Assembly (NCBI RefSeq): GCF_022808775.1
Contig: NZ_JAKZLA010000001.1
Span: 434,001-498,000, forward strand
DNA length: 64,000 nucleotides
Direction of reading: 5' to 3'
From: Geothrix terrae
Lineage (GTDB): Bacteria; Acidobacteriota; Holophagae; Holophagales; Holophagaceae
A program made the position numbers and the translations under genes. The notes beneath the pieces were generated by a model that saw only the letters and a program-made list of their open reading frames with translations, made no database searches and was not told the DNA's origin. Shown piece after piece: positions 38,790-43,689 of this stretch (positions are counted from its first letter, which is position 1; every line of letters begins with the position of its first letter).

Positions 38790-39821
38790 CTACTTCACGC
38801 CCCAGTCCAGGATGACCTTCCCGCTCTGTCCGCTCCGCATGGCATCGAAGCCCTTCTGGAAGTCGTCGATGCTGTAGCGGTGGGTGATGACGGGGGTGAT
38901 GTCCAGGCCGCTCTGCACCATGGCGGCCATCTTGTACCAGGTCTCGAACATCTCGCGGCCGTAGATCCCCTTCAGAATCAGCCCCTTGAAGATCACCTGG
39001 CTCCAGTCGATGGCGCAGTCGCCGGGGAGGATGCCCAGGAGGGCCACCCGGCCGCCGTGGTGCATGGATTCCAGCAGGGACTCGAAGGCGTTGCGATTGC
39101 CGCTCATCTCCAGGCCCACGTCGAAGCCCTCGGTCATGCCCAGATCCTTCATGACCTCAGGCAGGCCCTTCTTCATGGGATTCACGGCCACGGTCGCGCC
39201 CATCTTCCGGGCCAGGTCGAGGCGGTACTCGTTCACGTCGGTGATGACCACATGCCGGGCGCCCACGTGCCGGGCGATGGCCACGGCCATGATGCCGATG
39301 GGGCCCGCGCCGGTGATCAGCACATCCTCGCCCACCATGTCGAAGCTGAGGGCCGTGTGCGTGGCGTTGCCATAGGGATCGAAGATGGAGGCCACCTCGT
39401 CCGGGACGTTGTCCGGCACCTTGAACACGTTGAAGGCCGGGATGGAGAGGTACTCGGCGAAGGAGCCCGTGCGGTTCACGCCCACCCCCACTGTGTTCCG
39501 GCACAGGTGGCGCTTGCCGGCCCGGCAGTTCCGGCAGTGTCCGCAGGTGATGTGCCCCTCGCCGCTCACACGGTCGCCAGGCTTGTAGCCTTCGACCTCG
39601 GCACCGACCTTCTCGATGACGCCGTAGTACTCGTGGCCCACCACCATGGGCACGGGAATGGTCTTCTGGGCCCACTCGTCCCAGTTGTAGATGTGCACGT
39701 CGGTGCCGCAGATGGCGCTCTTGTGGACCCTGATGAGCACATCGTTGGGGCCCATCTCCGGCATGGGCACCTCGCCCATCCAGATGCCTTCCTCCCGCTT
39801 GGTCTTCAACAGGGCTTTCAT
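38790..39821 (-). CDS. tdh: L-threonine 3-dehydrogenase
   Basis: 343 residues. Catalytic zinc site [13 protein letters not shown] and GHEYYG; structural zinc [15 protein letters not shown]; Rossmann motif [13 protein letters not shown]. Oxidises threonine to 2-amino-3-ketobutyrate, the substrate of Kbl, which is encoded 2.7 kb away rather than adjacent. GGAGG precedes the ATG. Confidence 0.96.
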
Positions 39822-39883
39822 GGCGCCTCCAACCGCACCATTATCATCATCAACGGCAAGGCCGGCCACCTCCGCATCCATGC

Positions 39884-39911
39884 TTGACGGTTCGTGAAGC
39901 CTCCCGATATG
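39884..39911 (+). promoter_or_regulatory. Likely promoter of the asnB leader
   Basis: -35 TTGACG (39884-39889), 16 bp spacer, -10-like GATATG (39906-39911). The predicted start lies about ten bases before the leader-peptide ATG. Confidence 0.5.
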
Positions 39912-39928
39912 GTTCTTTCAGGCGGCCC

Positions 39929-40018
39929 ATGACCTTCTCCTCTCTGCGGACCAACCGCAACTTCAATAATCCGCTCCCTCGCGCGAATCGCGCGTGGGCC
40001 GGAGAGGGTCTCACCTAG
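39929..40018 (+). CDS. asnB leader peptide, asparagine-rich
   Basis: 29 codons plus TAG. Asn codons occur at positions 9, 11, 13, 14 and 20 (39953-39955, 39959-39961, 39965-39970, 39986-39988), five of 29, clustered just before the regulatory hairpins. An AGG lies six bases before the ATG. The peptide has no other recognisable feature. Its position between a promoter and a strong terminator directly upstream of asparagine synthetase fits a ribosome-stalling leader. Too short for ordinary gene callers. Confidence 0.72.
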   Translation: MTFSSLRTNRNFNNPLPRANRAWAGEGLT

Positions 40019-40077
40019 ACACCTGAATTCCCGGACCACCCCCGATTCGCGAGAGCGGATCGGGGGTTTTTCTTTTT
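39980..40077 (+). promoter_or_regulatory. Transcription attenuator of asnB
   Basis: Three mutually exclusive elements. (1) A protector hairpin CGCGCG-AAT-CGCGCG at 39980-39994 inside the leader ORF. (2) An antiterminator: 39982-39990 (CGCGAATCG) pairs perfectly with 40043-40051. (3) A terminator: 40038-40050 pairs with 40055-40067, a 13-position stem with one G-U and a GAGA loop, followed by TTTTTCTTTTT. A ribosome stalled at Asn codons 9-14 would block hairpin 1 and favour the antiterminator; a ribosome reaching the stop would let 1 and 3 form. The T-run ends ten bases before the asnB ATG. Confidence 0.78.
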
Positions 40078-40086
40078 GGAGCTCCC

Positions 40087-41826
40087 ATGTGCGGCATCCT
40101 CACCATCCTCGACATCGATCCCTCGCGCTCGAACGCGGCGGAGCTCCGGCGCCAGGCCCTGGCCATGGCCCGGAAGATCCGCCACCGCGGGCCGGACTGG
40201 AGCGGCATCTACAGCGATGACCGGGCCATCCTCGTCCATGAGCGCCTCTCCATCGTGGATGTGGAGCACGGCGCCCAGCCCCTCGTCGACACCCTCCAGG
40301 GCACCGTCCTGGCCGTGAACGGGGAGATCTACAACCACCGCGAGCTGCGCCATGGGCTGCGGGAGGCCCACGACTTCCAGACTCTCTCGGACTGCGAGGT
40401 GATCCTCTACCTCTACGACGAGCTGTCGCCCAGGGACTTCCTCAACCGCATGAACGGGATCTTCGCGTTCGTGCTCTACGACCCCAAGCGGGAGACCTAC
40501 CTCATCGCCCGGGATCCCATCGGCGTCATCCCCCTCTACCTGGGCTGGGACCGGGAGGAGCGGCTCTACGTGGCTTCGGAGATGAAGGCCCTCGTGGGCC
40601 ACTGCGAGCGCATCCGCGAGTTCCCCCCGGGGCACTTCTACCTTGGCCACGAAGCGGACAAGGGCTTCCAGCGCTACTACGAGCCGGACTGGGCCCAGCC
40701 CGGCTACGTCCCCCAGGAGCCCTACGAACCGGTGAAACTCCGCGAAGCCCTGGAAGCCGCGGTGCGTCGACAGCTCATGTGCGACGTACCCTACGGCGTA
40801 TTGATTTCCGGGGGCGTGGATTCCTCCTTGGTGGCGGCCATCGCCGCCCAGTACCGGGATGGACGGGTGGAGGAAGGGGGCACCACGCCCGCCTGGTGGC
40901 CCCGGATCCACAGCTTCGCCGTGGGCCTGAAGGGCGCGCCGGACCTTGCCCCCGCCCGGCTGGTGGCGGACCACATCGGCGCCATCCACCATGAAATCCA
41001 CTTTACGGTGCAGGAAGGATTGGACGCCCTCTCGGACGTGATCCACCACCTGGAGACTTTCGACATCACCACGATCCGGGCCTCGACGCCCATGTACCTC
41101 ATGATGCGGAAGATCCGGGCCATGGGCATCAAGATGGTGCTCTCCGGCGAGGGCGCCGACGAGATCTTCGGCGGCTACCTCTACTTCCACAAGGCGCCGG
41201 ACGGTCCGGAACTGCATGCGGAGACAGTCCGCAAGCTCCAGAAGCTGCATCTCTACGACTGCGCCCGGGCGAACAAGTCCAGCGCGGCCTGGGGCGTCGA
41301 AGCCCGCGTGCCCTTCCTCGACCGGGAGTTCCTGGACGTGGCCATGCGCCTGGATCCCGCGGTGAAGCTGCCCCGGAACGCTCCGCGGCCCAGGCCCATC
41401 GAGAAGTACCCGCTGCGCCAGGCCTTCGACGGCCTCATCCCGGACGAGGTGCTCTGGCGGCAGAAGGAGCAGTTCTCGGATGGCGTGGGCTACGGATGGA
41501 TCGACAGCCTCAAGGCCACCGCCGAGCGCGAGATCAGCGACGCCATGATGCGCGGCGCCGCGGAGCGCTTCCCGGTCAAGACCCCGGAGACCAAGGAGGC
41601 CTACTTCTACCGCCAGATCTTCGAGCACCACTTCCCCAGCGCCACGGCCGTCAACTGCGTCCCCTTCGAGCGCAGCGTGGCCTGCAGCACGGAAACCGCC
41701 CTGCGGTGGGACGCTTCCTTCGCGAACCAGGCTGACCCCTCCGGGCGGGCCGTGACCGATGTCCACCTTCAGGGCCATGGCTCCGCGCTATCATCACCGG
41801 GCCAGCCGAACCCGGAAGCCCATTGA
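40087..41826 (+). CDS. asnB: Asparagine synthetase, glutamine-hydrolysing
   Basis: 579 residues. N-terminal nucleophile Cys2 (MCGILTI), RHRGPD, NGEIYNH and SDCEVIL form the glutaminase site; the synthetase domain has the PP-loop SGGVDSSLVAA near residue 240 and SGEGADEIFGGYLYFHKAP. Converts aspartate to asparagine with ATP and glutamine. GGAG sits directly after the attenuator's T-run, seven bases from the ATG. Its stop overlaps the ATG of the PilZ gene. Confidence 0.97.
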   Translation: MCGILTILDIDPSRSNAAELRRQALAMARKIRHRGPDWSGIYSDDRAILVHERLSIVDVEHGAQPLVDTLQGTVLAVNGEIYNHRELRHGLREAHDFQTLSDCEVILYLYDELSPRDFLNRMNGIFAFVLYDPKRETYLIARDPIGVIPLYLGWDREERLYVASEMKALVGHCERIREFPPGHFYLGHEADKGFQRYYEPDWAQPGYVPQEPYEPVKLREALEAAVRRQLMCDVPYGVLISGGVDSSLVAAIAAQYRDGRVEEGGTTPAWWPRIHSFAVGLKGAPDLAPARLVADHIGAIHHEIHFTVQEGLDALSDVIHHLETFDITTIRASTPMYLMMRKIRAMGIKMVLSGEGADEIFGGYLYFHKAPDGPELHAETVRKLQKLHLYDCARANKSSAAWGVEARVPFLDREFLDVAMRLDPAVKLPRNAPRPRPIEKYPLRQAFDGLIPDEVLWRQKEQFSDGVGYGWIDSLKATAEREISDAMMRGAAERFPVKTPETKEAYFYRQIFEHHFPSATAVNCVPFERSVACSTETALRWDASFANQADPSGRAVTDVHLQGHGSALSSPGQPNPEAH

Positions 41827-42197
41827 TGAGCGCGACTCCCGACCAGCGACAATACCCCCGCGTTCCCATCGCCTATCGCGTGAAGGTGGTGACCCCCGAA
41901 CGTATCATCGCGTTCCCGTCGGCCATCAACATCAGCATGGGCGGCATCCTGATCGGCGGGCCGGATCGGCTGCCCGTGGGCACCACCTGCGGCGTGGCCA
42001 TCCTGCTCGAAGAGGCGGAGGCCGGCAGGCGGGTGGTGACCCGGGGAACCGTGGTCCGCTCCGATCCCAACGGGATGGCCATCCAGTTCTCGCGGGAGCT
42101 CGAGCCGAATGGGGTCGAAGCGCTGAGGGCCTTGATCCGGTCCGTCTCCCCCGAGGCGGATCAGGCCTTCGAGGCCCGGAACCATCTCGGCGGATAG
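41826..42197 (+). CDS. PilZ-domain protein
   Basis: 124 residues, a single PilZ domain. RQYPRVPIAYRVKV has the R-x-x-x-R-like element and NISMGGILI the (D/N)xSxxG element that bind cyclic di-GMP. Overlaps the asnB stop by one base (TGATG), so at least co-translated with it; the biological link is unclear. Confidence 0.85.
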   Translation: MSATPDQRQYPRVPIAYRVKVVTPERIIAFPSAINISMGGILIGGPDRLPVGTTCGVAILLEEAEAGRRVVTRGTVVRSDPNGMAIQFSRELEPNGVEALRALIRSVSPEADQAFEARNHLGG

Positions 42198-42495: not shown

Positions 42496-43689
42496 TCAGG
42501 CGATCACCTTCAGCTCGCGCCCCACCTTGGTGAAGGCGGCGATGGCGTGGTCCAGATCGGCCTTCGTGTGGGCGGCGCTCATCTGAGTGCGGATGCGTGC
42601 CTGGCCCTTGGGCACCACGGGGAAGAAGAAGCCGATAACGTAGACGCCTTCGTCCAGCAGGCGCTTGGCGAACTCCTGGGCCAGGGGGGCGTCGTAGAGC
42701 ATGACGGGCACGATGGGATGCTCGCCGGGCAGCAGCTTGAAGCCGGCCTTCTCCATGCCGGCGCGGAAGTACCTGGCGTTCTCGTGGACCTGCTTGATGA
42801 GCCCCTGGCTGTTCTTCAGGAGGTCGAGCACCTTCAGGGTGGCGGCCACGATGGCGGGGGCCACGGAGTTCGAGAACAGGTAAGGACGGGCCTTCTGCCG
42901 CAGCCAGTCGATGGCGATCTGCTTCCCGGCGATGTAGCCGCCGGAGGCTCCGCCCAGAGCCTTGCCGAAGGTGCCGGTCATGAAGTCCACGCGGCCCATG
43001 ACGCCGCAGTGCTCGTGGGTGCCGCGGCCGTTGGCGCCCATGAAGCCCACGGCGTGGCTGTCGTCCACCATGACCATGGCACCGTGCTTCTCGGCCAGAT
43101 CGCAGATCTCGGCCAGCTTGGCGATGTAGCCGTCCATGCTGAAGACGCCGTCCGTCACCACCAGCTTGAACCGCGCCCCGGCGGCGTCCGCGGCCTTGAG
43201 CTGGGCCTCCAGGTCGGCCATGTCGGAGTTGGCGTAGCGGAAGCGCTGGGCCTTGCAGAGGCGGATGCCGTCGATGATGGAGGCGTGGTTCAGGGCGTCG
43301 CTGATGATCGCGTCCTCCTCACCCAGGAGCCCTTCGAAGATGGCGCCGTTGGCATCGAAGCAGCTGGAGTAGAGCTGGGTGTCTTCGAAGCCCAGGAAGG
43401 CCGCCAGCTTCTGCTCCAGCTCCCGGTGGATGTCCTGGGTGCCGCAGATGAAGCGCACGGAGGCCATGCCGAAGCCGTGGCCGTCCATCACGGCCTTGCC
43501 GGCGGCGATCACCTCGGGATGGTTCGCCAGCCCCAGGTAGTTGTTCGCGCAGAGGCAGACCACATCCCGCCCGTTGGCCTTCATCTGCGGCTGCTGGGGC
43601 GAAGTGATGACGCGCTCGGTCTTGTAGAGCCCGGCCTCCTTCAGCTGCTCGATCTCGCGGGTCAGGTGGGCCAGGTAGGCAGGGTTCAC
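42496..43689 (-). CDS. kbl: Glycine C-acetyltransferase (2-amino-3-ketobutyrate CoA ligase)
   Basis: 397 residues. [16 protein letters not shown] (PLP Asp/His), the PLP lysine in [15 protein letters not shown] near residue 245, and [14 protein letters not shown] are diagnostic of the alpha-oxoamine synthase family. Full-length identity to Kbl rather than BioF is suggested by [28 protein letters not shown]-type N-terminus and by the presence of tdh in the same region. Cleaves 2-amino-3-ketobutyrate to glycine and acetyl-CoA. Confidence 0.95.

Follow-up and report, generated by a model that had tools for sequence, protein, structure and literature searches.

Leader-peptide attenuators are known for Trp, His, Leu, Ile/Val, Thr, Phe and a few other amino acids. 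In a few Firmicutes, asnS is under the control of T-boxes (PMC2494555). Of the attenuators predicted in Acidobacteria, hardly any came with an associated function (PMC2965389), and the attenuator coverage of Actinobacteria includes no Asn case (PMC1262725). Our full-text literature search, with most subscription papers lying outside its coverage, found no asparagine leader-peptide attenuator.

We propose, with a probability of roughly 0.89, that the asnB leader of Geothrix terrae, located in a 64,000-nt stretch of DNA (the window), is a ribosome-mediated transcription attenuator sensing charged Asn-tRNA. The model rests on the leader ORF, the conservation of its Asn codons, the competing helices, the reappearance of the layout in remote lineages and, in folding, the agreement of footprint position with the Asn codons. 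Like E. coli trpL and the his, leu, thr, phe and ilv attenuators, the leader has a short ORF in which codons for the end product are abundant; terminator and antiterminator share a strand, and the stall window in folding coincides with the regulatory codons, as the same simulation shows for E. coli trp. It differs from these attenuators in its Asn codons, asnB target, acidobacterial host and lack of sequence similarity, and also in its long antiterminator, in the position of the stop codon, which follows the core switch segment by about 25 nt, and in a weak 1:2-type helix P1. A response to Asn-tRNA charging and the control of transcription termination, both proposed here for asnB, are likewise features of the Firmicutes asnS-type T-boxes; the asnB leader, however, would sense a stalled ribosome and not uncharged tRNA, and the T-box covariance model has no match at the leader.

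The + strand between the upstream dehydrogenase gene and asnB carries a promoter-like site, the 29-codon ORF, the terminator and a GGAG site (Table 1). Since this upstream neighbour, a divergent zinc-dehydrogenase gene (tdh-like, 38790-39881, - strand), is transcribed away from asnB, the terminator can stop only asnB leader RNA. Transcription would probably start at about 39919-39921, from the promoter-like site, whose TTGACG box keeps a fixed spacing of 44-47 nt to the leader ATG at most Geothrix loci; AGG or GGA precedes the leader ATG in 35/37 Geothrix leaders. The tdh-like gene and a kbl-like aminotransferase-fold (class I/II) gene (42496-43689), both on the - strand, flank asnB as a threonine catabolism pair split around it, the names being inferred and the domains found by search. 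A PilZ-domain ORF (41823-42197), with a possible start overlapping the asnB 3' end, is perhaps co-transcribed.

Table 1. Features of the asnB leader region, in window coordinates
Feature	Position	Strand	Evidence or measure
Promoter-like site, TTGACG - 18 nt - TATGGT	39884..39913	+	9/12 matches
Leader ORF, 29 codons, five Asn codons, MTFSSLRTNRNFNNPLPRANRAWAGEGLT then stop	39929..40018	+	start, stop, codons 9 and 14 conserved in Geothrix
Helix P1, 5' strand, pairs with 40001-40010	39931..39940	+	minimum-energy fold
Core regulatory Asn codons 9, 11, 13, 14	39953..39970	+	conservation in 37 Geothrix leaders
Protector hairpin sequestering the switch segment	39976..39998, core 39980-39994	+	-15.7 kcal/mol; near-invariant sequence in family
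Antiterminator 5' strand, switch segment (region 2)	39982..40002	+	18 pairs with 40031-40051
Helix P1, 3' strand	40001..40010	+	minimum-energy fold, alignment
Antiterminator 3' strand (region 3), overlaps terminator 5' arm	40031..40051	+	folding and alignment
Intrinsic terminator, 13 pairs then TTTTCTTTTT	stem 40038-40067, T-rich tail to 40077	+	about -26 kcal/mol
GGAG ribosome site of asnB	40078-40081	+	
asnB, asparagine synthase B (glutamine-hydrolysing), 579 aa, proposed regulated gene	40087..41826	+	NCBIfam NF006949, 824.6 bits, cut-off 499

The ORF is exactly as the preliminary description had it, with 29 codons and Asn at positions 9, 11, 13, 14 and 20, and is enriched in codons for the end product of asnB. 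Asn accounts for 1.26% of all codons in the window's genes, against 5/29 in the leader and 4/6 in codons 9-14; at the window frequency, the chance of at least five Asn in 29 codons is P = 3e-5 and that of at least four within codons 9-14 is P = 4e-7. Among the 37 Geothrix leaders, codons 9 and 14 are Asn in every case and vary solely between AAC and AAT, codon 11 is Asn in 32 and His in the other 5, codon 12, between Asn codons, is Phe, Thr, Ile, Ser, Pro or Asn, codons 3-6 and 8 are highly variable, and the stop codon is retained in all 37. The alignment indicates that selection acts on the Asn codons, not on the peptide. The fifth Asn codon, codon 20, is present as described but is not a core regulatory codon, because it lies inside the switch segment, in the protector-hairpin loop, and is Asp in 23/37 Geothrix leaders.

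The strong intrinsic terminator reported before asnB is found between the leader ORF and the gene, the T-run ending (40077) nine bases before the ATG (40087) and not ten. The 9-base switch described earlier, 39982-39990 (CGCGAATCG), is the exact complement of 40043-40051 (CGATTCGCG), but the antiterminator extends to about 18 bp, and it shares a strand with the terminator. Its duplex scores -29.8 against -18.4 for shuffled sequences (z -3.7), and 39979-40053 folds at -35.3 kcal/mol. The local protector hairpin (39980-39994) likewise exists, and CCC/GGG flanks extend it to the limits given in Table 1. In the alignment, 99.0% of cells are paired in the terminator stem and 97.6% in the antiterminator, each with 42 distinct sequences and no double changes. 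The preliminary description had suggested looking for covarying stems in relatives; in the Geothrix-type alignment no double-sided covariation is seen in the core helices, because they are near-invariant within the clade. Helix P1, although present in the leader of the window, is weak across relatives, where it is barely above shuffles (71.7% of cells paired vs 70.1%).

The 201-nt leader folds more stably than all 200 of its dinucleotide shuffles (z = -3.75). Such strong structure would also suit a premature terminator controlled by a protein, a small molecule or uncharged tRNA (riboswitch, T-box), with the Asn ORF incidental, but we regard this as quite improbable: Rfam 15 at gathering score detected only three tRNAs in the whole window and no His, Leu, Thr, Trp, Phe or other leader family, the Asn codons are kept while adjacent bases change, and an Asn ORF persists in leaders of unrelated sequence (see below). 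Rfam run at an E-value threshold likewise gave no leader family, and a sub-threshold match of NsiR1 to the terminator hairpin (24.2 bits vs gathering score 39) was rejected. It is hardly credible that the short ORF boosts asnB translation by re-initiation or coupling while the terminator is unregulated; such leader genes have been postulated throughout bacteria, Acidobacteria included, for distances near 10-11 nt (PMC4833913), but here 68 nt and the terminator separate the leader stop from the asnB ATG, and the Asn codons and the antiterminator would be left unexplained.

We folded the nascent RNA with a 30-nt ribosome footprint at successive codons. With the RNA 3' end at 40053, where the 5' arm of the terminator is newly exposed, and no ribosome, P1 (39931-39940 with 40001-40010) and the protector hairpin are kept and the antiterminator is absent. 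With the A site on codons 5-15 and the 3' end at about 40053, a full antiterminator of 22-24 pairs forms between 39982-40002 and 40031-40051 (CGCGAAUCG/CGAUUCGCG, GUGG/CCAC, CCGG/CCGG), and this antiterminator is partial or lost with the ribosome on any of codons 16-30. The earlier claim that a stall at Asn codons 9-14 favours antitermination is thus reproduced by the modelling, in which a ribosome that finishes the ORF shifts the balance towards the terminator. As positive control, the same script was applied to the E. coli trp leader (sequence confirmed against E. coli genomes), which gave its peak at Trp11-Arg12. Once the 3' arm has emerged, the terminator is always the thermodynamically favoured structure of the full-length RNA, therefore the choice between the two must be kinetic, as in trp. 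The antiterminating plateau ends at most one codon from the last core Asn in 44/49 leaders. Many homologues lean to the antiterminator even with no ribosome on the RNA (mean 0.69).

According to the proposed mechanism, transcription would begin just upstream of the leader ORF, with a ribosome trailing RNA polymerase. Scarce Asn-tRNA would stall the ribosome at Asn codons 9-14, where it would block P1 together with the protector-hairpin base and leave the switch segment (39982-40002) free to capture the emerging terminator 5' arm (40031-40051), so that asnB would be transcribed. When Asn is plentiful, the ribosome would reach codon 30, the switch segment would be covered or back in its own hairpin and hence unavailable, and the terminator (40038-40067) would form and stop transcription; P1 might keep a ribosome-free leader in its terminating state. 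We infer in this model the transcription start, the translation of the ORF, the coupling of transcription and translation and the response to Asn. AsnRS (TIGR00457) is above cut-off in 72/80 genomes and matched in 57/57 good genomes; with asnS present, Asn-tRNA is charged from free Asn and its charging should report free asparagine.

The asnB upstream regions of 38 Geothrix, 13 other Holophagaceae, 29 other Acidobacteriota and 76 other-phyla loci were compared. The conserved short ORF with Asn codons, which the preliminary description had suggested seeking in relatives, is present at 37/38 Geothrix and 10/13 other Holophagaceae asnB loci. For terminator-bearing loci, we searched for an ORF before the terminator with at least three codons of one amino acid within ten codons, for all 20 amino acids and against 60 dinucleotide shuffles per locus. 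Asn clusters were found at 34/38 Geothrix loci (0.1 expected), 8/9 in other Holophagaceae (0.2 expected), 3/11 in other Acidobacteriota (0.1 expected) and 1/11 in other phyla (0.5 expected). This single other-phyla match (L077), from an AT-rich MAG and with a GTG start, was excluded from the positives, and AsnB homologues of Gammaproteobacteria and Bacteroidota had no Asn clusters beyond chance. A chance ORF over a conserved non-coding element would explain the conserved C-terminal half of the peptide as a consequence of RNA conservation, but the cluster counts in Geothrix and the purely synonymous alternation of codons 9 and 14 make it very improbable.

The same layout occurs with unrelated sequences in genus g5 (Holophagaceae) and in three or more further families of Acidobacteriota; beyond the Geothrix-like type, the leaders have the architecture in common but not the sequence. 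Genus g5 has the leader MTFASVNFANINPPPGWSW, an unrelated antiterminator (GGGGUGGA/UCCGCCCC) and a CCCCACG...CGUGGGG terminator. The leaders of G147, G302 and G486 read MMHTRSNSVNPNRGNSCAAGVCL, MKRRNSNNATSNSLNTNFSATGGLLP and MSLIVRVLVNSLPNSNSNSNCQEPVRTG, respectively, and G106, a congener of G486, has two Asn alone with the helices kept. In all of these (g5, G147, G302, G486/G106) the antiterminator, pairing with the terminator 5' arm, starts 7-15 nt past the last core Asn codon; its shuffle p is <0.001 for G147 and G106, 0.025 for G302, 0.07 for G486 and 0.025-0.17 within g5. Support for the core helices comes from what appear to be re-evolved pairings in distant lineages, not from covariation inside Geothrix. 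G309 and G455 have a hairpin and two or three Asn codons but failed the terminator rule and were not counted as positive.

These leaders also bear on what is sensed. Arg codons (7, 10, 15, 18, 21) interleave with the Asn codons of the window's leader, codons 10 and 7 are near-invariant in Geothrix, and Arg clusters exceed shuffles in Geothrix (32 vs 10.4) and other Holophagaceae (7 vs 2.4), as would suit a leader sensing arginine or general slow translation. Ala (34 vs 5.8) and Pro clusters are likewise above shuffles in Geothrix; such an excess of Arg, Ala and Pro is expected where a GC-rich RNA motif is conserved, and it does not extend to every group. Sensing of arginine or of general slow translation is nevertheless quite unlikely: the g5 leaders carry Asn and almost no Arg, the distant G302 and G486 leaders are Asn-rich with few Arg, Arg clusters are at shuffle level in other Acidobacteriota (4 vs 3.4), and the product of the downstream gene is asparagine.

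On the AsnB tree, leader presence requires nine label changes, of which well-supported branches force at least three, a count that may be inflated by the labelling of G309 and G455 as leader-bearing; therefore one origin with losses is not separable from several gains on this tree. We lean towards Asn-sensing leader attenuation as a recurrent control of asnB across Acidobacteriota, present beyond the Geothrix-like type in several unrelated ones (g5; G147; G302; G486/G106), acquired or rebuilt repeatedly and lost elsewhere, with Asn as a new ribosome-sensed specificity.

The region-2 motif occurs in one copy per Geothrix genome, at the asnB leader in asnB-bearing genomes, and was not found in Geothrix genomes without asnB. 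Three near-complete Geothrix genomes (G009, G018, G043) are without this asnB and yet have asnS. The leader is absent from the asnB upstream regions of G040, G054, G062, G076 and most other Acidobacteriota. In G040 (L035/L182/L160) the leader is lost and the asnB promoter is fused almost directly to the gene; its relatives G032, G002 and G046 (L026, L027, L029) have a leader with two core Asn codons (NRHSN), which looks as if control had decayed before the loss. G054 and G062 (genus g9; L069, L070) have another conserved stretch directly upstream of asnB, AGTGTCACGGAC.GGTATCCTG..TGTTTATACC, which has no Asn ORF and may be a regulatory device of a different sort. The asnB of a MAG labelled Gemmatimonadetes (L076, JACPFW010000012.1) branches inside Holophagaceae and has a leader of the same type (MTSATLRQSRNNNGNPRANRAWDGAGV then stop), which would reflect transfer or mis-binning.

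A Trp leader of classical appearance (MTLSFPTLRQGFLQGAWWWRAGSDGSLCEA then stop) lies upstream of trpE in Geothrix (L244:1231-1323, terminator 1349-1373; G000:C1, trpE at 400943), and its congeners (L245-L255) have WWW, YWW or WYW followed by a terminator before trpE. It resembles the asnB leader of the same genomes in combining a leader peptide with a terminator and differs in having Trp and not Asn codons, an unrelated sequence and another gene; ribosome-mediated attenuation in the genus is thus probably not unique to asnB. In footprint folding the Geothrix trp leaders drop at or just past the Trp run, less sharply. The ilvB, leuA and hisG upstream regions in Geothrix have no cognate leader with a terminator.

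Taken together, the independent comparative evidence supports the attenuation interpretation of the preliminary description; the mechanism is classical, and the Asn specificity, the asnB target and the phylum appear to be new. The G040 genome, which keeps promoter and asnB, and the two-Asn clade around G002 provide natural comparisons. A working Asn attenuator, if true, implies close transcription-translation coupling in Acidobacteriota, which to our knowledge is otherwise untested, and would be an in vivo reporter of Asn-tRNA charging.
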